From NCBI GenBank assembly GCA_012519815.1, contig JAAYPM010000042.1, positions 1 through 33,402 of the forward strand: 33,402 nt of DNA, given 5' to 3'. The notes below the pieces were generated by a model. The model had not been told where the DNA came from, did not search any database, and saw nothing but the letters and a program-made list of their open reading frames with translations. A program made the position numbers and the translations under genes. Numbering within the stretch: the first letter of the stretch is position 1; each line of letters begins with the position of its first letter. This document shows positions 16,666-30,379 of the stretch, one piece after another. The stretch is from Bacteroidales bacterium (lineage in GTDB: Bacteria > Bacteroidota > Bacteroidia > Bacteroidales > UBA1715).

Positions 16666-19600
16666 ATGAAATTTTTACAAAAATGTATTATCGTTTTTTG
16701 TGTTATTGCATTACACACCACAGCTTTTTCACAAGTTCGTCAATTTTCAGAAAATAATGAGGAGTTTTTTAATCAGTTAGATGATTTTTTCTCAAATTCT
16801 TCTCGTGCAAAAGAGTTAAAAAAATTCCACAAAGACTTAAAAAAGTATTGGAATTCGGGTGCTATTCCAAGCGAAGAACAAAAAAACATTGTTGAAACCT
16901 GTAACATACTGTTAAGCAAACACGGACGAGCATATCCACATTTTTATAATTATTTTACCGCCATTCAATTATTCTTTGTAAAAGACCATGCCATGTCGAG
17001 TTATCATGAATGGGACAAGGCTCTTAGGTATTTAATAACAAGCAAAGGAATGGTTACCACCGACAAATTTTTAATGAGTTCTATTCGTTTGTTAGACAAC
17101 AACGAGTTAGAAGCCTCGTCAACCGCCACATGGCGTGTTGCTCGTTTGCGGTCGTTTGCATATTCATTTAATGAACAAACCAAAGAAGTTCGCATTACCT
17201 TTCCACCAACAGATTTAATTTGTCAATCAGCAAAAAATGAATTTATTTTATATCAAGCTGCTGGATATTATTTACCATTCGAAAACCAATGGGTAGGTAT
17301 TCGTGGGAAAGTAAGCTGGGAACGTTCTGGAGCAAATAGTGAATTAGTTTTTGCCGATTTAGGGAATTATGTAATTGACATGCGGAGAAACACATATGAT
17401 GCTGACTCTGTTTGGTTTACCAACAAAACCTATTTTCAAGAACCCTTATTAGGTAAACTTTCTGAACGAACCGTGCCTGTACGAGACCCTGAAAGCGTAT
17501 CGTATCCTCGTTTTCAATCATATCAACAATTTTTTGAAATTCCCGACATGTATCCTGGCATTAATTACAAAGGTGGTTTAACCATGCATGGTGCACGAGT
17601 AATTGGTTCGGGAACAGCAGAAAATCCTGCAACACTGCATTTTGTGCGGGGCGACTCTACTCTTGTTTTTTGTAAATCCGAAAGTTTTATTTTTAATAAA
17701 GACCACGTTGTTGGTAGAAATACAGAAATAAGCATTTATGTTCAAAAAGACTCTATTTATCATCCCGGCTTATTATTTCGCTATGATGTAGCAACCAAAC
17801 AAGTGTCGCTTATACGAAACGAAGACACAGAAAATCTATCGCGAGCACCTTATTCAAATTCATATCATATGATTTCTATGGATTTTCCACAATTAACATG
17901 GAGAATTGATGAACTAAACATGCGTATGGGTGGATTGGAAGGAACCACTGTGAATAAAGCAAGTTTTGAATCTGCTAATTATTTTCGTGCGTCTCGATAT
18001 AGTGAAATTGGTATGTACGACCGAACACACCCTTTAATTGCCCTCACACGTTTATCGGAACAAAAGAAATCAGAAACATTTACCTTACATGATCTTTCAA
18101 ATTTTTTACGTGCCGAACCTATTGCGGTCGAACATCTGTGTCTTGACTTGTTGTATCGTGGCTTAATTACCTATGATATTGATAAAAAAATTATTGGTTT
18201 AACACCTCGTATTCAGGAATATATAGATGCTCGTATGGGAAGAATTGATTATGACGTAATTCAATTTAACTCAGAGCATGACGTGCGGGGATTACACAAT
18301 GCTCTGCTTGATTTGTCTTCGTATAACCTTGAAATGACAGGAGTCTCTAAAATTCAAGTGAGTGACTCGCAAAACGTGATATTTTATCCTCGTGGTAGTC
18401 AAATCACCATGTCAAAAAACAGAGACTTTACCTTTGATGGTATTATTCAATCAGGTTTATTTACGTTTTATGGACGAGGATTTGACTTTAACTATGATGC
18501 ATTTAGAATTGGCTTAAAAAACGTGGATTCATTAAAAATTAAAGTGCAAAGTTTAACACAAAACGAATTTGGATTACGTCCTCTTGTGGAAGTTAAAAAT
18601 GCTATTGAATACATTACAGGTGAAATTCTTATTGACGACCCAAATAATAAATCATCTATTAAAGATTATCCGCAATATCCAATTTTTGACAGTAAACAAC
18701 ACTCGTATGTGTTTTACGATTATCCCGCAATATATGGCGGCGTGTATGATAGAAAAAAGTTTTTCTTTAAAGTTGATCCCTATGTAATTGATAGTATTAA
18801 TAATTTCTCAACCGAAGGATTATTCTTTGATGGAGAATTTCAATCGGCACAAATTTTTGAAACAATGCGCGAAAAAATTGTGGTGCAACCTGATTACTCA
18901 TTTGGATTTACACGCGTTACGGGTACAAAAGGATATCCTGTGTATAAAGGAAAAGGACAATTTACCGATACAATAAATTTGAGTTTTAAAGGACTTCGCG
19001 GAATAGGTAAAATTGAATATTTAAATACACATGCCAAGTCATCGCGTGGTTTTACGTTTTTCCCCGACTCTACAAAAGGACGAGCTGATACATATCACAT
19101 AGCACGTCAATCAAAATCAAAAGGAGCTGAATATCCTGAAGTAAATGGCGAACAAGTTGATATTCTTTGGGAACCATATCTTGATAGATGGGTTTCGGTT
19201 GAAACAGGTAAGGCATTTAAAATGTATGGCGACACAACTCACTTAACGGGAGGATTAATTTTTACACCAAAAAATTTAACTGGTTGGGGACGATATACGT
19301 TTAGCGAAGCAATTATTACTGCAAACGACTTTACGTTTAAAGAAAAAGAAGTGCTTGCCGATCATTCAAACTTTGATTTAGCATCGGGTGCAAACTTATC
19401 CGACATGGCGTTTCAAACAGAAAACGTACAAACGTATGTGAATTATGAAACTAAAAAAGCAAACTTTAAAGCAAACGATAACGTTACTGTTGTTCAATTT
19501 CCTCAAAATAAATATATCTGTTATTTAAATCAATTTACGTGGGATATGGTAACTAAGCAAATTGAACTTGGTAATCCAAAAGCGTTAACCGAAGATGTAG

Positions 19601-21288
19601 AAGCTGAACTTCATTTTTATTCTCGTTTAATGAGTCAAGATACCATCAACTTTAAATCGCAATATGCTAAATATGATTTAAATAAACATATTATTGATAC
19701 ACACAAGGTTCCTTATATTGATGTAGCTGATTCGCGAATTATACCTCATCAAGACAGTATAATTCAAATTAGAAAAGATGCAAATATGAGAACGATTCGA
19801 AATGCAACATTTATAGCAAATCGTACAAATCAATATCACACAATATATAATGCAACATTTAATGTGCAAGGAAAACTTGATTATAGTGGAACAGGATATT
19901 ATGATTATATTGACGAAACAAAACAAAAACAAACAGTACTGTTTTCTCATATTGGTGTAGATAGCGTTTTCCGTACGTTTGCAACTGGTAGAATTGCCGA
20001 AACTGATGAATTTACGCTCTCGCCTGTATATAAATATTATGGCGATGTGCGAATGAATGCATGGCGAAAAGATTTAACATTTACTGGAAATGTGCTTGTT
20101 GCTAATGAATGTGAAGTTATTTCTCCAAACTGGTTCAAATTTTCAAGTGAAATAGATCCTAATGAAATTTACATTCCTATTTCAAACTATCCTGTATCGC
20201 GTAATAATGACACAATAGGAGCTTCTATTTATATTAATAATAGACCAACGCATTTTTATACTTCGTTTTTAACTCCACTTAAATCAGAATATGATGCAAA
20301 AGTTGTAAATGCTTCAGGATATTTATTTTATGATAAATCTTCGAGACGATACAAAATTGGAGCGAAGGAGAAAATCCAAAACGAAGCATTGCAAGGAAAT
20401 TTACTTACATATCATCGTGAATACTGCAACACCTATGGTGAAGGGAAGCTAAATTTAGCTGCAGATTTAGGACAAATAAAAGTTGAAGCATACGGAAACG
20501 TTACCCATGCAATTGTTTCAAATCGGGTTACTATAGAAACATTCTTAACGGTTGATTTTATGTTTGACCAAAGAATATTGAATACTGTTGCCGATACGCT
20601 TATAAATCAACCCAAATTTAAAGCTGCCGATTTAACAACACTTACGTTTAAAAAAGGTATTACCGAATTACTTGGCGACGAAGCATCACAAGAAATTCAG
20701 TCTGAAATACAATTATATGGAACTATTAGAAGAAAACCTGCTGAATTACAACGCTCAATAGTATTTTCGCATGTTGATTTTGTGTGGGATACCGTTGCGT
20801 TTGCATATCGTTCGGTTGGACAATTAGGAGTGCATAGTATTTTAGGAAAAGACGTGAACAAAATGGTTGACGGATATGTAGAAATTGTAAAACTATACGC
20901 TGGTGATATGCTTACAATTTTCTTTGAACTTGAAGACAAATGGTATTTCTTCCACTACAATAGAGAAACCATGGAATTTGTATCAGCAGAAGCACCTATA
21001 AATTTGGCAATGGAGAACATAAAAGAAGCACAACGCGTTATGAACGTTCCTCGTAGAGAAGCACAATACAAATATCAACTATCATCAGAGGCAGTAATGC
21101 GAAACTTTGTAGGAAAATTTAAAGCTGGTGAAGGATATACAAATATAGCGCCTCCTACCATTCCTGTACCGGGAGCACAACCACAAGGAGCTCCACAGAT
21201 TGGCACAGAACAACAAGGAGAACAGGAAGCTGCTCCTAAAACCGATGGAGATGAATATGATTCTTATGAAGATCCTGATGATTATTAA
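16666..21288 (+). CDS. Very large exported protein of unknown function
   Basis: A 1540-residue protein with a clear signal peptide (MKFLQKCIIVFCVI ... AFSQ, cleavage near residue 23). I recognise no named domain. Most of it reads as beta-rich repeats of short strands with aromatic and Asp residues, for example FTFDGIIQSGLFTFYGRGFD and VDSLKIKVQ; similar FxxxG patterns recur through to about residue 1250. A different, helical stretch at about 475-540 (FLRAEPIAVEHLCLDLLYRG) could be a small winged-helix-like insertion. No C-terminal beta-barrel signature or T9SS sorting domain is evident. The end (about 1490-1540) is Pro/Gln rich, then strongly acidic with DEYDSYEDPDDY. Periplasmic or surface location is inferred. 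Probably co-transcribed with prmA; a hairpin terminator follows. Confidence 0.85.
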   Translation: MKFLQKCIIVFCVIALHTTAFSQVRQFSENNEEFFNQLDDFFSNSSRAKELKKFHKDLKKYWNSGAIPSEEQKNIVETCNILLSKHGRAYPHFYNYFTAIQLFFVKDHAMSSYHEWDKALRYLITSKGMVTTDKFLMSSIRLLDNNELEASSTATWRVARLRSFAYSFNEQTKEVRITFPPTDLICQSAKNEFILYQAAGYYLPFENQWVGIRGKVSWERSGANSELVFADLGNYVIDMRRNTYDADSVWFTNKTYFQEPLLGKLSERTVPVRDPESVSYPRFQSYQQFFEIPDMYPGINYKGGLTMHGARVIGSGTAENPATLHFVRGDSTLVFCKSESFIFNKDHVVGRNTEISIYVQKDSIYHPGLLFRYDVATKQVSLIRNEDTENLSRAPYSNSYHMISMDFPQLTWRIDELNMRMGGLEGTTVNKASFESANYFRASRYSEIGMYDRTHPLIALTRLSEQKKSETFTLHDLSNFLRAEPIAVEHLCLDLLYRGLITYDIDKKIIGLTPRIQEYIDARMGRIDYDVIQFNSEHDVRGLHNALLDLSSYNLEMTGVSKIQVSDSQNVIFYPRGSQITMSKNRDFTFDGIIQSGLFTFYGRGFDFNYDAFRIGLKNVDSLKIKVQSLTQNEFGLRPLVEVKNAIEYITGEILIDDPNNKSSIKDYPQYPIFDSKQHSYVFYDYPAIYGGVYDRKKFFFKVDPYVIDSINNFSTEGLFFDGEFQSAQIFETMREKIVVQPDYSFGFTRVTGTKGYPVYKGKGQFTDTINLSFKGLRGIGKIEYLNTHAKSSRGFTFFPDSTKGRADTYHIARQSKSKGAEYPEVNGEQVDILWEPYLDRWVSVETGKAFKMYGDTTHLTGGLIFTPKNLTGWGRYTFSEAIITANDFTFKEKEVLADHSNFDLASGANLSDMAFQTENVQTYVNYETKKANFKANDNVTVVQFPQNKYICYLNQFTWDMVTKQIELGNPKALTEDVEAELHFYSRLMSQDTINFKSQYAKYDLNKHIIDTHKVPYIDVADSRIIPHQDSIIQIRKDANMRTIRNATFIANRTNQYHTIYNATFNVQGKLDYSGTGYYDYIDETKQKQTVLFSHIGVDSVFRTFATGRIAETDEFTLSPVYKYYGDVRMNAWRKDLTFTGNVLVANECEVISPNWFKFSSEIDPNEIYIPISNYPVSRNNDTIGASIYINNRPTHFYTSFLTPLKSEYDAKVVNASGYLFYDKSSRRYKIGAKEKIQNEALQGNLLTYHREYCNTYGEGKLNLAADLGQIKVEAYGNVTHAIVSNRVTIETFLTVDFMFDQRILNTVADTLINQPKFKAADLTTLTFKKGITELLGDEASQEIQSEIQLYGTIRRKPAELQRSIVFSHVDFVWDTVAFAYRSVGQLGVHSILGKDVNKMVDGYVEIVKLYAGDMLTIFFELEDKWYFFHYNRETMEFVSAEAPINLAMENIKEAQRVMNVPRREAQYKYQLSSEAVMRNFVGKFKAGEGYTNIAPPTIPVPGAQPQGAPQIGTEQQGEQEAAPKTDGDEYDSYEDPDDY

Positions 21289-21504: not shown

Positions 21505-24500
21505 ATGGCAGACAAAAGGAAGTTTATAACATGTGATGGAAATTATGCTGCAGCACATGTTTCGTATGCATTTACCGAAACAGCAGGAATTTATCCAATT
21601 ACCCCTTCTTCTGATATGGCAGAACACACAGACTCGTTCGCAGCTAACGGAAGAAAAAATATTTTTAATGACACAGTAAAAGTTGTAGAGATGCAATCGG
21701 AAGCAGGTGCCGCTGGAACAGTTCACGGTGCATTGCAAGCTGGTGCTCTTACTACTACCTATACTGCATCGCAAGGATTATTATTAATGCTTCCAAACAT
21801 GTACAAAATCTCGGGTGAACTTTTACCCGCAGTATTTCATGTAAGTGCTCGTGCTCTTGCTGCACAAGCGCTTTCTATTTTTGGTGACCATCAAGATGTA
21901 TATGCTGCACGCATGACAGGTTTTACAATGTTATGTTCAAGCAGTGTTCAAGAGGTTATGGATTTAGGTGCAGTTGCACACCTTGCTGCTATAAAAAGCA
22001 GTGTTCCTGTGCTCCATTTTTTTGATGGATTCCGTACTTCTCATGAAATTCAAAAAATTCAAGCGTGGGATTATAGCGAATTAGCAGAAATGGCAGACTA
22101 CGATGCTATTCAAAAATTTAGAGATAAAGCCCTCAGCTCAGAACATCCTGTTACAAGAGGAACAGCACAAAATCCTGACGTATATTTTCAAGCACGAGAA
22201 GCATCAAATTCATTTTATAATGCAGTGCCTCAAATAATTGAGGATTACATGAAGGAAGTTAATAAGCGTACTGGTAGAAACTATCAGCTCTACAATTATT
22301 TTGGAGCTTCCGATGCTGAACATATAATTATAGCAATGGGTTCGGTAAGCGAAACAATTCGTGAAACCATTGATTACATGAATAGTAAAGGCAAAAAAGT
22401 TGGGTTCTTACAAATTCATTTATACCGCCCATTCTCTGTTAAACATTTTTTACATGCTCTTCCAAAAACTGTTAAAAAAATTGCTGTTTTAGATAGAACT
22501 AAAGAGCCAGGAGCAGCAGGTGAACCATTGTTTTTAGATGTTTGCAATGCTTTTTATGGCACACCAAACGCTCCAGTTATTGTTGGTGGTAGATATGGTT
22601 TATCATCAAAAGATACAACACCACGACAAATAAGAGCTGTGTTTACAAATCTTGAACAGCCAGAGCCTAAAAACGGATTTACAATTGGTATTGTTGATGA
22701 TGTTACCTTTACATCACTTGTAATGAGCGATGAAGAAATTAACACTGTACCCGAAGGTACTGTTGAATGTAAATTTTACGGATTGGGGTCTGATGGAACT
22801 GTTGGAGCGAATAAAAACTCTATAAAAATTATTGGTGATAACACAAACCAATATGCACAAGGGTATTTTTCATATGACTCTAAAAAATCGGGAGGCATTA
22901 CAATATCGCATCTGCGATTTGGAAAAAAACCTATTACTTCTACCTATTTAGTAAGTAATCCAGGATTTGTTTCATGTTCAGAACCGTCATATCTTGATAA
23001 ATATGACATGCTTCAGGGAATTAAACAAGGCGGCACATTTTTATTAAATTCGCTTTGGGATGCTACAGAAATTGAAAAACATCTACCCAACAAAATCAAA
23101 AAACAACTTGCACTCAATAATGTAAAATTCTATATTATTAATGCAACAAAAGTTGCCGAAGAAATTGGATTGGGCAACCGCACAAACACTATTCTTCAAT
23201 CGGCATTCTTTAAACTTGCAAATGTAATTCCGTATGAAGATGCTGTGGGATATATGAAAGAAGCAATTAAATCATCATATGGAAATAAAGGAGAACATAT
23301 TGTAAACATGAACAGCAAAGCCGTTGATAGTGGCGTTGACAGTTTGCAAGAAGTTCCTGTTAAAGCAGAATGGAAAAATTTACCAGAATCAAATGACTTT
23401 AAAATATATCAAGGAGTTAATGAAAATACCGATAAGGAATTAGCAGATTTTGTGGTAAATATGGCAGCTGTAATGAATCAACAAGAAGGCGACTCATTAC
23501 CAGTAAGTGCGTTTATGAAATATGTTGACGGTACCATTCCAAATGGTAGTACCGCTTTTGAGAAACGTGGTATTGCTGTAAATATTCCAGAGTGGCACAA
23601 AGATAATTGTATTCAGTGTAATCAATGTGCATATGTTTGTCCTCATGGAGTTATTCGTCCGTTTTTACTTAACGAAGAAGAATTGGCAGCCTCTCCAAAT
23701 GAATTAAGCACATTAAATGCTATAGGTAAAGGATTTGAAGGGCTACAATATCGCATTCAAGTTTCTGTTCTTGACTGTACTGGTTGTGGAAGTTGTGCAA
23801 ATGTATGTCCAGGCAAAAAAGGCGAAAAAGCTTTAGTTATGACACCGCTTCAAGAACTTGTAGAAGAGGAAAAAGTAAACTGGGAATATATTTCGGAGAA
23901 TGTTACATACAAAGACACAATAGCACCAATTTCTACCGTAAAAGGTTCGCAATTTAGACAACCTTTATTTGAATTTTCGGGTGCATGTGCAGGTTGTGGA
24001 GAGACACCATATGTTAAATTAATTACACAATTATATGGTGACAGAATGGTTGTTGCAAATGCTACAGGTTGTTCGTCTATTTACGGTGGATCTTCACCAT
24101 CAACACCATACACAAAAAATAAAGATGGCAAAGGTGTTGCTTGGGCAAACTCTTTATTTGAAGATAATGCGGAGTTCGGATTAGGTATTACAATTGCTAT
24201 GAATAAATTGCGCGACCGCATTGCTATGAAAATGGATGAATCTATGAGCAGCGTGTCTGCAGAGTTACAATCGGCATTTACACAATGGATAGAAGGAAAA
24301 GACGATGCCGAAGCTTCAATTACAGCAACTGAAAATCTTGTACCACTTCTTGAAAAATCAGAAAAACCTATAGCAAAAGATATTCTTGCACTACAACAAT
24401 ATCTCACTAAAAAATCAAATTGGATTATTGGTGGCGATGGTTGGGCATATGATATTGGCTTTGGAGGTTTAGACCACGTACTTGCATCTGGAGAAGATGT

Positions 24501-25077
24501 AAATGTTCTTGTTCTTGACACTGAAGTATATTCAAACACAGGTGGACAAGCATCAAAATCATCTCCAACAGGTTCGGTTGCAAAATTTGCAACAGCAGGT
24601 AAAACAGTTCGAAAAAAGGATTTAGGACGCATGGCTATGACCTATGGTTATGTATATGTAGCACAAGTTGCAATGGGTGCAAATCAAGCACAACTGTTAA
24701 AAACAATTCGTGAAGCAGAATCGTATCCGGGACCATCGTTAATAATTGCATACGCTCCTTGTATTGCACATGGCATTAAAGGAGGTTTAGGAATTTCACA
24801 AACCGAAGAAAAATATGCAGTTGAATGTGGATATTGGCACTTATACAGATTTGACCCTCGCCTTGAAGCGGAAGGTAAAAATCCATTTCAATTAGATTCA
24901 AAAGAGCCAAATTTTGAGGAATACAAAAATTTCTTGAAGAATGAAGTTCGGTACACAACCTTACTTAAAACATTCCCTGAAAATGCAACTCAATTATTTG
25001 AACAATCTCTTGAAGATGCAAAATGGAGATACAAACAGTACACACGCCTTGCATCAATGAACTACGATCAAGAATAG
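21505..25077 (+). CDS. nifJ: Pyruvate:ferredoxin (flavodoxin) oxidoreductase
   Basis: Oxidatively decarboxylates pyruvate to acetyl-CoA and CO2, passing electrons to ferredoxin or flavodoxin; a central anaerobic enzyme. The 1190-residue single chain contains all PFOR domains in order: the pyruvate-binding PITPSSDMAEHTD at about 31-43, EMQSEAGAAGTVHGAL near 61-76, the CoA-binding middle region, a two-cluster ferredoxin domain (Cys702, 705, 708, 712 and Cys758, 761, 764, 768), and the C-terminal ThDP domain with GGDGWAYDIGFGG and DTEVYSNTGGQ. The four ligands of the proximal cluster are present: Cys828 and Cys831 (CAGC), Cys853 (ATGCSS) and Cys1086 (YAPC). It is a single-gene unit ending at a hairpin shared with the convergent regulator gene. 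Confidence 0.98.
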   Translation: MADKRKFITCDGNYAAAHVSYAFTETAGIYPITPSSDMAEHTDSFAANGRKNIFNDTVKVVEMQSEAGAAGTVHGALQAGALTTTYTASQGLLLMLPNMYKISGELLPAVFHVSARALAAQALSIFGDHQDVYAARMTGFTMLCSSSVQEVMDLGAVAHLAAIKSSVPVLHFFDGFRTSHEIQKIQAWDYSELAEMADYDAIQKFRDKALSSEHPVTRGTAQNPDVYFQAREASNSFYNAVPQIIEDYMKEVNKRTGRNYQLYNYFGASDAEHIIIAMGSVSETIRETIDYMNSKGKKVGFLQIHLYRPFSVKHFLHALPKTVKKIAVLDRTKEPGAAGEPLFLDVCNAFYGTPNAPVIVGGRYGLSSKDTTPRQIRAVFTNLEQPEPKNGFTIGIVDDVTFTSLVMSDEEINTVPEGTVECKFYGLGSDGTVGANKNSIKIIGDNTNQYAQGYFSYDSKKSGGITISHLRFGKKPITSTYLVSNPGFVSCSEPSYLDKYDMLQGIKQGGTFLLNSLWDATEIEKHLPNKIKKQLALNNVKFYIINATKVAEEIGLGNRTNTILQSAFFKLANVIPYEDAVGYMKEAIKSSYGNKGEHIVNMNSKAVDSGVDSLQEVPVKAEWKNLPESNDFKIYQGVNENTDKELADFVVNMAAVMNQQEGDSLPVSAFMKYVDGTIPNGSTAFEKRGIAVNIPEWHKDNCIQCNQCAYVCPHGVIRPFLLNEEELAASPNELSTLNAIGKGFEGLQYRIQVSVLDCTGCGSCANVCPGKKGEKALVMTPLQELVEEEKVNWEYISENVTYKDTIAPISTVKGSQFRQPLFEFSGACAGCGETPYVKLITQLYGDRMVVANATGCSSIYGGSSPSTPYTKNKDGKGVAWANSLFEDNAEFGLGITIAMNKLRDRIAMKMDESMSSVSAELQSAFTQWIEGKDDAEASITATENLVPLLEKSEKPIAKDILALQQYLTKKSNWIIGGDGWAYDIGFGGLDHVLASGEDVNVLVLDTEVYSNTGGQASKSSPTGSVAKFATAGKTVRKKDLGRMAMTYGYVYVAQVAMGANQAQLLKTIREAESYPGPSLIIAYAPCIAHGIKGGLGISQTEEKYAVECGYWHLYRFDPRLEAEGKNPFQLDSKEPNFEEYKNFLKNEVRYTTLLKTFPENATQLFEQSLEDAKWRYKQYTRLASMNYDQE

Positions 25078-25167: not shown

Positions 25168-25815
25168 TTATAACTGAATTATATTATTTTTAATTGAAAA
25201 TTTTATTAAATCAATAGTTGTTTTTAATTGAAGTTTTTGCATAATATGGGTTTTGTGAGTTTCAACCGTTCTAATACTTATACATAACTTATCGGCAATT
25301 TCTTGATTTGTTAAACTGCTACCCCATAATTTAATAATTTCAATTTGTCGCTCACTTAATTTTTGCAAGTTTTCTTCGGGAGTTGCATCATTTATTTTAC
25401 GCACATATTGCTGCAAAACAATATGTTTAATAGATTTATCAAAATAATCAAATCCATTTCGTAAAGAATACACAGCTTCTATTAAATCTCTTGGTTCTGC
25501 ATTATTTGACAATAATCCTTTGGCATTTGATTTTACAATTTTAATAATTGTTTCTTCCGTTCTATCGGCAGGTATAACTAAAATTTTTAATTTTTGATGG
25601 ATTGCGTGTAAACGAACAAACAAATTTAAAGTACGATTTGAAACATCAGAAACGCTGATAATGAGAACATGTAGATTTTTATTGGCAACTTTATCAACAA
25701 GCATTTTTTTATTATCAATTGCAAATAAAATATTAAAATCATTGCAATTGTCGAGTATTAATTCTACTCCACGAAGTAAAAGTTTGTGTTGAATACATAT
25801 ACCTACATTAATCAT
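25168..25815 (-). CDS. LuxR/NarL-type regulator with degenerate receiver domain
   Basis: A 215-residue DNA-binding regulator. The C-terminal helix-turn-helix (about 151-215) is intact: LSERQIEIIKLW, NQEIADKLCIS, RTVETHKTHIMQKL. The N-terminal 120 residues keep the receiver fold pattern, but phosphorylation residues are missing: the acidic pair position reads Ile8-Gln9, the phospho-acceptor position is Ser54 (HVLIISV), the switch Thr/Ser position is Pro82, and the conserved Lys is Asn104 (GLLSN). It is therefore probably controlled without Asp phosphorylation. The start lies four bases after the stop of the 1519-residue sensor/PEP-synthase-like gene, so the two form an operon and likely one signalling unit. 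Target genes are unknown; nifJ and its own operon are candidates by position only. Confidence 0.92.
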   Translation of the reverse strand: MINVGICIQHKLLLRGVELILDNCNDFNILFAIDNKKMLVDKVANKNLHVLIISVSDVSNRTLNLFVRLHAIHQKLKILVIPADRTEETIIKIVKSNAKGLLSNNAEPRDLIEAVYSLRNGFDYFDKSIKHIVLQQYVRKINDATPEENLQKLSERQIEIIKLWGSSLTNQEIADKLCISIRTVETHKTHIMQKLQLKTTIDLIKFSIKNNIIQL

Positions 25816-25819
25816 GTGT

Positions 25820-28800
25820 TTACAGTATAATTATCGAAGTTTTTTTCTTACCGTCCATAAGTACACGCAATGATTTTTTAAAACGCACATGAACACAATG
25901 TTTTGTTTTTTTAATTACTTTTTGCTTTGCAATCACGTCCCATGCAATAAAATCGGTAGCAGAATTATGATGCACCGAAAAATAACCAACATTCATTGAT
26001 GTAACATTATGGAAAAAATGTGAACCTAAAGATGAATCAAGAGGAAAATTATCAAGACTTGTTTCTACAATTACTTTTGCTTTAGAAATTTGAGACCAAG
26101 TAACAGGCACTCCTAAAAATCGGTCGCGAGTGCCCCAACGTCCAGGACCTAATAAAACATACTTTCGATTTTCTTGTATCATTTGCTTATTAATTTCCTC
26201 TATTTCGGCAGCCATTTCAACTGTTTCTAATTTATTAAACGATTCGGGACTAACACACACTAAATCAGTTATATCAGAAACTTCACCATTCCCTAAACTC
26301 TGTTGCGAATACAACAATAAATCCTTTCGTTGAAATTTAGTAAAATCAATAGGTATTGTATTTATTCCTGTAAGCAAAGGTTTTATTTGCAACAAATAAA
26401 ATGTTGGCTTGTTGTATTTATTAGGCTCTAAATCAACAGCATATTCAATTTCAACAGGAGAACCAAATGCCTCTTCAACTGTTTTCAAAATTACTTCAAT
26501 TGTTTTTGCAAGCGGTATATAATTATGTTGCAAAATATTTGCAAAATTTATAATGCGTGGTCCCGATGTCATTAACCCCGGCTCTATTCTATCATTATCA
26601 ACATTATATACAGACGCACAATGTTTCAGTGTACCATGCTTTTCGGCAACATCAATATCAAGAAGTTCCATAGCAGCATATTCTCCGTCAGCAACAAAAT
26701 CAACATCAATATTAGTAGTTTTAAGTGCATAAAACTGCCTTTGCGTTGCCTGCAAAATATCTTTTGTTCCGTACACCGACACATTTGGATATTTTGGCGA
26801 AAAACGATATGATTTCCAGCCATTAACCACATATGTACCAAGTCCAACGGCTGCAACAGCAAATCCCTCTTCGGGTTTCATATTGCCAATCGGGTAATAA
26901 TTATAAGATTGTGCCACACCGCTCACATGAGGATAATAATATTCACCATGATACGAGCCTACTAATTCTTGCAACACAATAGCCATTTTTTCATCTTCAA
27001 CTTTATGATTGATTGCTTCAAAATATATACGAGCATCTTTTGAATACACAGAGGCGTACACCATTTTTATTGCATCAGATATAAATTCTACAATTTTGCG
27101 TTTATATGTTTTTGAATTTGGAATAACATATGTGTCAAAAACACCAGAAAACGGATGCGTTAAAGAATCTTCTGAGGTACTTGAAGACCGCACCGCAATT
27201 GGACGATCTACTTGATTTACAAACACTTTAATTTTCTTTAACAAAGAAGGAGATAATTTTCCTTTTGCAAAAAACTCACGAAGTTTTTCGTATGGTAATT
27301 TTGTATTAAATATTTTATCAGAAAGTTTATTTCGTGTAATAAAATTTTGGAATTCATCGGTACCAATAACAACAGTAACAGGGGTTAATATTGAAATTTG
27401 TTGTGATAATTCAGAGAAATCGGTGTTATACAACAACACATCAATAAATCCCAAACCTCTTCCTTTTCCTCCGAGTGAGCCTGTACAAAATGTTACAATA
27501 TTGCGTTCGTCAATAGTGGCCGATTCTTCAAACGTTATAATTTTTCCTCGTTTTTTAACCTCCCTATATTTACGAAATTCCTCTAAAATCAATGCTCGTT
27601 TTTCTGCAAGATTTTCATATTCTTCAACTCGAATAGAATTTATATTTTGAGCCAATTCTATTTCGCCACGTGCCATTAACCAAATTGAAAATTGATTTTG
27701 GTGTGCATGTAAATAAAAAGAATCATCGGGTACAGTTGCAATTAAATTTTCAAATTCACGCAATGATTTTGCTTCGGCAATTTCAATTTCATCTTTATCG
27801 CGAAATACAAAATTACCAAAGCCCAAATAACTTTGTAAAAACACGGTTAAATCACGTATTAAATAGTCGGAATTTTTGTCAAGAAATTTTACACCAAGTT
27901 TTTCAGCAACAAATTTATTTTGTTCTTCAGACGACTGCAAGATAACAGGCAAATTATAAATTTTTGTTCGAGCATATTGTATAAATTTCACTCCCGCTTC
28001 TTTGTCAAGTTTTCCTGTCCGTTCAAATTCAAAATCAGAAATAACACACAGCAAAAAATCTTTATACATATTAAAAATAGAGATTGCCTCTTCATAATTT
28101 CGAGCCAATAAAATTTTTGGACGAGATCGCATTTTACAAATTTTATTGAGTTCATTTTTAGAAACTTCGGGTAAAATTTGTCGCACTTGGTCAAATACTA
28201 TTGAATATAAGGTTTGCAAATATCTTGAATAATACAATGGAGAATCTTCTATTAATAAAATTACCCGCACTAATCCAATTTTTGTGTCATTTGCCACATT
28301 CACTCTATCTTCTATTGATTTAACCATTGTAAAAAAAATGAGCGAGTCGCCATTCCACACAAAAATTTTATCGACCGAACGAATTGTAGGCACAATATTT
28401 TCGAAATGTTTTAAATCATTTTTTTTGTTTAACAGCAAATAAATTGGTATTTCTGTGTGCTTTGCTCTAATTTCCTCGCTCATTGTTATAGGAGCATGTT
28501 TATCTATTCCTGCCATCACCACTATTAAATCAAACGATGTGGTTTCTAACAATTCAAGGGCTTCATCTAAAGATGAAACGCCAGTAATACGAGGAAGTGA
28601 AAACAAGCTATATTGATAAATTTCTCCCATAAATTTTTCAAAAAACGAGTCTTCACTTTCGAGCATAAAAGCATCGTACAAGGTTGATACAAATAAAATA
28701 TGTTTTACTTTATATTTCATCATATCTAAATACACGTACTTTTCAAGCGATTGCTGATTAAAATACAGTTGTATAGGGCGTTTTGTTTGACTAAGTGATT

Positions 28801-30379
28801 TACGAAACTCCTCATTTTTATCTTGAACGCTATCAGGAATATTTTTTTGACTTAAAACTTCAATTCCCTTACAGCTATTTAAAAAACCGTTAATTAATTT
28901 TGCTGTAGTATGTAGTACATTTTGCTCTTCCTGTAAAAAAGGCCCAACATCTTCGGACGGAAATTTTTTAAGATACACTATTTCAATTGTTCCTTTTTTG
29001 TTATCTATTGTGTAAATAGGCTCAGAAAGCATCCATGGGGTAGTTTTAAAATGAGGCGTTTTATACGTCTCTCCTTCAAATGTAATTTTACAAGCAGCAT
29101 ATTTTGAATATTGACATGCATTAGGCAACAATAAACATATCCGATGCATCACCTCTTGCACATTATTTTCTTCTTCTATGATTTTTGAAACCATAGTAAT
29201 AATATGCATTTCTTTTAATCGTTCCTCATTTGTTTTTTGGAGTGATAAAAAAGCATTTTTCGCAACTCTTCCTGATATAATTGCAGCAAGATTTTGCAAT
29301 AAAACATGTTCTTCTTTTAAAAATGGACTATTATCAATTTTCGGAAAATCTTTTGTATAAAAAACCTCTATACTTCCTCGTGTTTTAGATACAGAATAAA
29401 AAGATTGTTTAATTCTCCATTCTGATTCCTCAAAATGATTACTCAAAAAAACTTGTTTATTATATTTAATTCGTACAACAGCATGGTCAGAATATTGAAA
29501 CGCATCGGGTAAAATTGCACAAATTTCTGATAAAACATCTTGTAATTCCTTTGCTTTTTGAATAATATGAGATGCTGCGTTAATAATTTTAATTTCTTTT
29601 AATCGCTCTGTGTTTTGATATAAAACCTCCTTTAAAATTATTTTGCTTGTAGCACCCGAAATAAGTGCAGCTAAATTGTATATAAAATTTCGCTCTTCTT
29701 GTAAAAACACATCATTATCACCGCTTTGCATGTCTTGCACATAACACACCTCAACATATCCCTTTGAACCATTAGGAATTTCAAATGATTCTTTTATTGC
29801 CCACTGAGTACGTTTAAATTTTTCACTGGTATATATGTTTTCATCATACACTATTTCGGCACCCGCATGTTGAGAATGTTGCATTACTACAGGTAAAAAC
29901 TCACATATACGCTGTAGCATATCATCAATAGTGTTTTCTTTATTTGCAATTTTTACCGCTGTATCTATTCCCGTAATTTCTTTAGAACGCTCAATATGTT
30001 TATGAGTTAATTCGCCTAATTGATACATAGAAAACGCACTTTTAAGTACTGTTTTCCATTGCGGCAGCTGTTTTTTTATTATAGTATATTCTTTTTGTAC
30101 CGAAGACAAGGAATCGTGAGAATTAAAATACAGTTTAATAATAACATCTTTATTATCAACTGTTTCAAAATGACTTCGAATAACAGAAGAACTAAACATA
30201 AACGCATCACTTTTATATTCATTCTGTAAAAATTTTATTGAAGCAGATTTTAATACGGGACTAAAAGCGTCAACAATTACGTTACAAACGCTCACAAGAA
30301 AATCAGAAAACGATTTTTTTTTCTCAAGTAAAGAAATAATTAAAGACGTAACTTCTGTTTGCGTATTTTTTGTATCCAT
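25820..30379 (-). CDS. Multidomain sensor: GAF-like repeats, two receivers and PEP-synthase-like ATP-grasp domain
   Basis: A 1519-residue soluble protein. Residues about 129-257, 258-385 and 386-500 are three tandem copies of a GAF-like unit sharing ICxxLP, GxIEVxY and FLxEE; a degenerate copy may cover about 25-118. A receiver-like domain at about 558-690 lacks the phospho-Asp. A second at about 703-850 looks competent: Glu711/Asp712, Asp782, Ser816, Lys835. Residues about 963-1335 match the pyruvate/phosphate dikinase and PEP-synthase N-terminal ATP-grasp domain: GSLGGKGRGLGF, AVRSSSTSEDS at 1062-1072, PFSGVFDTY, and the closing FYLLQIKP. A C-terminal segment (GPGRWGTRDRFLGVPVTW at 1411-1428) follows. 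The swivelling phosphohistidine domain and PEP barrel are absent, so PEP synthesis is unlikely. It is the first gene of an operon with the LuxR regulator; signal and phosphoryl acceptor are unknown. Confidence 0.88.
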   Translation of the reverse strand: MDTKNTQTEVTSLIISLLEKKKSFSDFLVSVCNVIVDAFSPVLKSASIKFLQNEYKSDAFMFSSSVIRSHFETVDNKDVIIKLYFNSHDSLSSVQKEYTIIKKQLPQWKTVLKSAFSMYQLGELTHKHIERSKEITGIDTAVKIANKENTIDDMLQRICEFLPVVMQHSQHAGAEIVYDENIYTSEKFKRTQWAIKESFEIPNGSKGYVEVCYVQDMQSGDNDVFLQEERNFIYNLAALISGATSKIILKEVLYQNTERLKEIKIINAASHIIQKAKELQDVLSEICAILPDAFQYSDHAVVRIKYNKQVFLSNHFEESEWRIKQSFYSVSKTRGSIEVFYTKDFPKIDNSPFLKEEHVLLQNLAAIISGRVAKNAFLSLQKTNEERLKEMHIITMVSKIIEEENNVQEVMHRICLLLPNACQYSKYAACKITFEGETYKTPHFKTTPWMLSEPIYTIDNKKGTIEIVYLKKFPSEDVGPFLQEEQNVLHTTAKLINGFLNSCKGIEVLSQKNIPDSVQDKNEEFRKSLSQTKRPIQLYFNQQSLEKYVYLDMMKYKVKHILFVSTLYDAFMLESEDSFFEKFMGEIYQYSLFSLPRITGVSSLDEALELLETTSFDLIVVMAGIDKHAPITMSEEIRAKHTEIPIYLLLNKKNDLKHFENIVPTIRSVDKIFVWNGDSLIFFTMVKSIEDRVNVANDTKIGLVRVILLIEDSPLYYSRYLQTLYSIVFDQVRQILPEVSKNELNKICKMRSRPKILLARNYEEAISIFNMYKDFLLCVISDFEFERTGKLDKEAGVKFIQYARTKIYNLPVILQSSEEQNKFVAEKLGVKFLDKNSDYLIRDLTVFLQSYLGFGNFVFRDKDEIEIAEAKSLREFENLIATVPDDSFYLHAHQNQFSIWLMARGEIELAQNINSIRVEEYENLAEKRALILEEFRKYREVKKRGKIITFEESATIDERNIVTFCTGSLGGKGRGLGFIDVLLYNTDFSELSQQISILTPVTVVIGTDEFQNFITRNKLSDKIFNTKLPYEKLREFFAKGKLSPSLLKKIKVFVNQVDRPIAVRSSSTSEDSLTHPFSGVFDTYVIPNSKTYKRKIVEFISDAIKMVYASVYSKDARIYFEAINHKVEDEKMAIVLQELVGSYHGEYYYPHVSGVAQSYNYYPIGNMKPEEGFAVAAVGLGTYVVNGWKSYRFSPKYPNVSVYGTKDILQATQRQFYALKTTNIDVDFVADGEYAAMELLDIDVAEKHGTLKHCASVYNVDNDRIEPGLMTSGPRIINFANILQHNYIPLAKTIEVILKTVEEAFGSPVEIEYAVDLEPNKYNKPTFYLLQIKPLLTGINTIPIDFTKFQRKDLLLYSQQSLGNGEVSDITDLVCVSPESFNKLETVEMAAEIEEINKQMIQENRKYVLLGPGRWGTRDRFLGVPVTWSQISKAKVIVETSLDNFPLDSSLGSHFFHNVTSMNVGYFSVHHNSATDFIAWDVIAKQKVIKKTKHCVHVRFKKSLRVLMDGKKKTSIIIL

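Follow-up and report, generated by a model that had tools for sequence, protein, structure and literature searches.

A 1519-residue Bacteroidales protein with GAF-like repeats, two receivers and a PPDK-type ATP-grasp domain, from a core family often encoded near glutamate dehydrogenase

The window analysed here is the whole of a 33,402-nucleotide (nt) stretch of Bacteroidales DNA (assembly GCA_012519815.1, contig JAAYPM010000042.1), and the gene in question encodes a protein of 1519 amino acids (aa) on its minus strand. The protein joins four GAF-like repeats (R1-R4) to two receivers (REC1 and REC2), an ATP-grasp domain of the kind found in pyruvate phosphate dikinase (PPDK) and phosphoenolpyruvate (PEP) synthase, and a C-terminal domain defined by the motifs GPGRWG and G[ST]HFF[HQ]N. 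The features and their support are:

25820-30379, minus strand: whole coding sequence, 1519 aa; single intact open reading frame (ORF), with a full-length relative in the same genus.
29996-30379, minus strand: R1 (aa 1-128), degenerate fourth copy of the predicted GAF fold; weak similarity to R3 and R4, same predicted fold.
29609-29995, minus strand: R2 (aa 129-257), predicted GAF-fold repeat with long helical linkers; repeat alignment and predicted fold.
29225-29608, minus strand: R3 (aa 258-385), predicted GAF-fold repeat; repeat alignment and predicted fold.
28850-29224, minus strand: R4 (aa 386-510), predicted GAF-fold repeat, the copy found in single-repeat relatives; repeat alignment and predicted fold.
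28310-28708, minus strand: REC1 (aa 558-690), pseudo-receiver with Met622 at the acceptor position; Pfam Response_reg at aa 597-651, model and residue tally.
27815-28273, minus strand: REC2 (aa 703-855), intact receiver with E711/D712, acceptor D782, S816 and K835; model against receiver structures (Z about 14) and residue tally.
27494-27811, minus strand: DUF5752-like segment (aa 857-962); Pfam PF19027, E 3.4e-4, sub-threshold.
26360-27493, minus strand: PPDK_N-type ATP-grasp domain (aa 963-1340), keeping K972, R1064, T1083, E1310/E1312 and Q1331; Pfam PF01326, E 1.5e-39, and structure match, Z about 26.
25823-26359, minus strand: C-terminal domain (aa 1341-1519) with GPGRWG and GSHFFHN motifs and invariant H1454, a predicted divergent swivelling phosphohistidine-like domain; conservation and fold alignment.
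25168-25815, minus strand: LuxR/NarL-type regulator, 4 nt downstream and co-directional, its receiver without the acceptor Asp; Pfam GerE, E 1.9e-14, and alignment of 20 orthologues.

An assembly artefact is ruled out, because a same-genus genome encodes a full-length protein (65% identical) with four repeats and a LuxR gene likewise downstream. In a Pfam scan of the protein the repeats, the second receiver and the last ~180 aa were without any match, neither a HisKA nor a HATPase_c module was detected, and no PEP/pyruvate barrel (PF02896) or PEP-utilizers domain was found, the sequence stopping after the C-terminal domain.

PPDK_N (PF01326) is matched at aa 968-1335 with 136.7 bits (cut-off 27), which places the C-terminal half in the N-terminal family of PPDK and PEP synthase, as an earlier note on this DNA had proposed. 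By structure the ATP-grasp part comes closest to rifampin phosphotransferase (RPH; Z 26.6) and also matches PEP synthase (Z about 26); the NCBIfam model RIF_Ptrans (NF041857) gives 24.3 bits over the ATP-grasp part only, against a cut-off of 999, and thus does not assign the protein to that family. In a residue tally over 151 distinct core-family sequences, this protein included, K972, R1064, E1310, E1312 and Q1331 occur in every sequence and T1083 in 149. Sequence alignment pairs K972 with Lys22, R1064 with Arg117 and T1083 with Thr136 of RPH; mutation at each of these positions sharply reduced resistance, Lys22Ala having no measurable activity (PMC4844700). Since the ATP-handling residues in the tally are kept across the family and three of them match residues needed in RPH, the ATP-handling engine looks intact.

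H1454 of the C-terminal domain is present in all 151 sequences. A model of aa 545-1519, the conserved core unit (pLDDT 85.7), comprises the receivers, the ATP-grasp domain and a C-terminal alpha/beta domain. Its residues 405-975 align over 368 residues with chain positions 4-465 of PEP synthase 2ols (Z 26.0) and over 351 residues with 2-505 of PPDK 1dik (Z 18.6), and 1kbl, 1ggo and 1jde behave likewise; for 5hv6, an ATP-grasp structure on its own, the alignment covers 278 residues and ends at model residue 792, near which the ATP-grasp-only matches stop. The end points of the longer alignments fall at the end of the phosphohistidine domain in 2ols and the PPDK structures. The C-terminal domain is modelled as strand-helix-strand-helix-strand-loop-helix-strand, with H1454 opening the last helix, and the catalytic His of PPDK sits in the same way at a helix start between two strands. 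On this predicted fold the C-terminal domain is likely a divergent swivelling phosphohistidine domain, and an autonomous ATP-to-His half-reaction is plausible because an invariant His is present and the domain occupies the swivelling phosphohistidine position. The earlier note had stated that both the phosphohistidine and the PEP domain were missing; the PEP barrel is indeed absent and no profile recognises a phosphohistidine domain, but by fold the absence of the latter is probably wrong.

In 141 of the 151 sequences Met stands at the acceptor position of REC1, so this domain is an ancient pseudo-receiver. REC2 carries E711 in every sequence and D782, S816 and K835 in 149 each, and the whole signature set, D712 included, is kept in 136-151. 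The Pfam Response_reg match is weak, yet together with the model and the conservation of catalytic residues it supports the order of a degenerate receiver (558-690) followed by an intact one (703-850), just as had been read from the sequence. The DUF5752 match (aa 857-942) lies below its cut-off; in relative L063 it reaches 23.2 bits against a cut-off of 23.

The three clear tandem repeats recognised in the earlier note are mutually homologous: pairwise alignments of R2, R3 and R4 cover 113-117 aa, show 35-40% identity and reach z 34-45 against shuffled sequences. R1 is only just recognisable by sequence (z about 5-7, with a BLAST E of about 1e-4 against R3 and R4), and its status as the suspected fourth degenerate copy is supported by a predicted fold equal to that of the others. 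The N-terminal 560 residues are modelled (pLDDT 90) as four domains of like make-up, each with two helices and four strands, then a long signalling helix. Compared with known structures, this model retrieves GAF domains, GAF-containing photoreceptors and phosphodiesterases and phytochrome-type sensors, which fill the list at Z 10-13, and R1 by itself matches the NifA GAF domain (Z 11.2). The repeats are thus assigned, on a predicted structure, to the GAF fold, in agreement with their first description as GAF-like. The label is taken from the fold because support from sequence is weak: the GAF profile PF01590 is matched by 3 of 58 repeats (best E 0.0017), and the Aquifex nlh2 GAF domain at E 0.0022 over 36 residues only. 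At other loci this repeat module stands at the head of a histidine kinase, of a CRP-like regulator and of nucleotidyltransferases, which bears out the description of the protein as a sensor fusion. Examples of CRP-like regulator or histidine kinases headed by the module, for which Pfam has no model, are found at L060:6741-7850, L132:14595-16265 and L245:8300-11095.

The core of two receivers and ATP-grasp is a widespread family (Bacteroidota, Desulfobacterota, Acidobacteriota, Cloacimonadota and others). A match is present in 56 of 60 related genomes, and the genome scan gave at least 589 encoding loci, the best 80 of which span Bacteroidales, Spirochaetes, Acidobacteriota, Cloacimonadota, Gemmatimonadota, Desulfobacterales and other bins. 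Members are 36-74% identical to this protein over the core and have both receivers, the ATP-grasp domain, GPGRWG and GxHFF in the same order. They are annotated as 'PEP/pyruvate-binding domain-containing protein'. Bacteroidota have two subfamilies, A, which is 42-74% identical to the core of this protein, and B, at about 36%; the two are often adjacent and in the same orientation.

GAF-like repeats occur in 67 of 151 tree members, all under one node of 71 tips (support 0.88), and the array was therefore mostly gained once and later expanded or lost, with copy numbers of 0, 1, 2, 3 and 4. Four copies are found in this protein, the same-genus relative, L064 and L092, the last being apparently a separate expansion. 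The array had been singled out as the unusual part of the protein. This needs correcting: across the family the array is the part that varies, and it is found mostly in a single Bacteroidales clade (most core members have 0-1 repeats), while the receiver/ATP-grasp core that it extends is conserved and widespread. The components have been described before, and public genomes already contain the core family; open-access literature searched by domain names, GDH (glutamate dehydrogenase) linkage and DUF5752 yielded no paper on the family, and nothing in it covered the form with several GAF repeats, the probable hidden phosphohistidine domain or the GDH linkage seen across phyla.

In the multi-GAF lineage a LuxR-type regulator gene directly follows as a conserved partner, and in the close relatives L062, L063, L066 and L067 the order is core - LuxR - GDH. 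Across the core family, 30 of the 86 loci with adequate flanks have GDH no more than two genes away, and Pfam confirms the GDH assignment. These loci belong to Bacteroidales, Desulfobacterales, Gemmatimonadota, Cloacimonadota, an FCB-group bin, an Acidobacteriota (Holophagaceae) bin, a Thermoplasmatota-labelled bin and others. By our own estimate chance adjacency should be well under 1% at 1-2 GDH genes per genome; the loci are phylogenetically non-independent, yet the linkage recurs in distant phyla. Genes for KorAB or multi-subunit redox complexes adjoin some other core-family loci, and the convergent neighbour in the window is pyruvate:ferredoxin oxidoreductase (21505-25077). At 16666-21288 the window also has an ORF of 1540 aa with zero Pfam or NCBIfam matches. 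In this genome (95% complete) no PEP-utilizers domain (PF00391) was detected, hence no recognisable PPDK, PEP synthase or phosphotransferase-system enzyme I, and the protein is therefore not a helper of a local PPDK. Several same-family genomes likewise lack PF00391.

A REC-less sister family is found in other Bacteroidota classes, with the order GDH (archaeal type) - 580-aa ATP-grasp protein - GAF/ATP-grasp/nucleotidyltransferase protein of ~1065 aa (L239:3139-9562, L240:6808-18171, L241-L244). The 580-aa protein has the ATP-grasp and C-terminal domains only. At L240 the REC-containing and REC-less families and both GDH types stand side by side, and the tie of two core families to two GDH types is the strongest functional clue. 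Stand-alone proteins of GAF-like module plus nucleotidyltransferase adjoin core-family genes at L088:8196-9044 and L009:708-1484; the two modules are the two ends of the 1065-aa fusion.

From this anatomy, conservation and gene linkage we infer, at about even odds, a cytosolic signal-integrating phosphotransferase in which dikinase-type chemistry, gated by the GAF array and REC2, controls GDH and ferredoxin-dependent 2-oxoacid metabolism. The GAF array would bind one or more metabolites, and REC2 would be phosphorylated at D782 by a kinase, by a small donor or in cis. Ligand and REC2 phosphorylation would together gate the transfer from ATP to H1454 on the mobile C-terminal domain, carried out by the ATP-grasp domain through chemistry of the PPDK/PEP synthase type. 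The phosphohistidine would then hand its phosphate to an acceptor, which would not be pyruvate because the protein lacks the pyruvate barrel. The output may control GDH and ferredoxin-dependent 2-oxoacid metabolism through direct enzyme modification or, in this lineage, may switch the adjacent atypical LuxR regulator by contact. Pyruvate or PEP as ligand, and pyruvate as substrate, are unsupported, the barrel being absent, and the pyruvate-responsive output suggested by the earlier note is not sustained, as gene linkage points to GDH and 2-oxoacid oxidoreductases.

Several observations weigh against the proposed phosphotransferase. No profile ties the C-terminal domain to PF00391, and every sequence-based test failed: Pfam on 74 family members gave no PEP-utilizers match, hmmsearch of the domain against PDB no phosphohistidine-domain match, hhalign against a mixed set of PEP synthase, PPDK and enzyme I no PEP-utilizers link, and hhalign against a PPDK set no match, the master sequence of that set lacking the ATP-grasp part and so providing no useful positive control. 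The mixed set also gave a weak rival register equating GPGRWG with the GGxTSH loop. The fold alignment is given as end points only, with a root-mean-square deviation of about 5 A over two domains. The LuxR partner lacks the acceptor Asp and is no ordinary phosphorelay target, and the single GDH of this genome lies on another contig. The rival register (GPGRWG..LGIPV over GGRTSH..LGIPA) was ranked lower, as the model has no helix between the motifs and H1454 does start a helix between two strands. A conventional relay to the LuxR receiver is rejected because the acceptor Asp is missing here and in most of the 20 aligned orthologues.

The protein could instead be a regulated metabolic enzyme, its ATP-grasp and C-terminal domains phosphorylating a small metabolite (perhaps 2-oxoacid- or glutamate-derived) under allosteric control by GAF domains and receivers. 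The characterised relatives considered (PPDK, PEP synthase and RPH) all use small molecules, the neighbours are GDH, KorAB and redox complexes, and the 580-aa sister consists solely of the ATP-grasp and C-terminal domains. This reading is nevertheless unlikely, as no third substrate-binding domain of the PEP/pyruvate or rifampin type was found, invariance is seen in the phosphotransfer sites and the signalling domains, and tandem paralogues with differing sensor loads look regulatory. The complete conservation of H1454 and the tested ATP-handling residues across the 151 sequences exceeds the needs of a binding scaffold, which makes it quite improbable that the ATP-grasp domain is a nucleotide or energy sensor, binding ATP or AMP as input or scaffold without phosphate transfer and acting through REC2-dependent contacts and LuxR, even if a non-phosphorylatable LuxR receiver fits such protein-protein control.

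A phosphorelay in cis, in which phospho-H1454 would donate to REC2 at D782, within one protein or in the tandem paralogue, and would replace a histidine kinase, would draw on the near-complete retention of both residues. The window ORFs scanned included no recognisable histidine kinase gene, and REC1-REC2-DUF5752 occupies the acceptor-domain position of the PPDK-type three-domain plan. Yet the genome has 18 HATPase_c matches, many of them probably histidine kinases able to serve REC2, and receivers can also be phosphorylated by acetyl phosphate, so that this relay is given little credence. A wider claim, possible although doubtful, is that the family forms a distinct and so far undescribed bacterial signalling class across many phyla, in which a GAF-gated pair of PPDK-type ATP-grasp and phosphohistidine domains replaces the histidine kinase as phosphate source and feeds a receiver and/or GDH.

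If the signal-integrating phosphotransferase is real, a common protein labelled as a PEP synthase relative would be a regulator of glutamate and 2-oxoacid metabolism that uses dikinase chemistry for signalling, and the siting of such genes beside GDH in distant phyla would be explained. H1454, D782 and GDH would then be concrete targets for testing how the flows of nitrogen and carbon are matched in anaerobic Bacteroidota. The GDH linkage across many phyla suggests an unstudied control of central metabolism, and the series from 0 to 4 GAF copies inside one family is a natural experiment in sensor-array expansion.

Among known systems, PPDK and PEP synthase (PF01326-PF00391-PF02896) have the same ATP-handling residues, and the predicted fold overlay runs through their phosphohistidine domain; unlike them, this protein has no PEP/pyruvate barrel, its C-terminal domain is unrecognisable by sequence, and a GAF array and two receivers are added. 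RPH, the top structural match of the ATP-grasp part, is also a PPDK-type engine turned to a new acceptor, but here signalling domains stand in place of the rifampin-binding domain. Response regulators and hybrid sensor proteins share receivers, GAF sensors and signalling helices, whereas this protein lacks HisKA/HATPase and HPt and has an ATP-grasp phosphotransferase as its predicted output. The ~1065-aa GAF-PPDK_N-nucleotidyltransferase proteins have in common with it the GAF module, the ATP-grasp and GxHFF C-terminal domains and the GDH operon, but are without receivers and carry a nucleotidyltransferase domain. Within the REC-REC-PPDK_N core family, this member differs in its four repeats and in having a LuxR partner in place of the tandem B paralogue.

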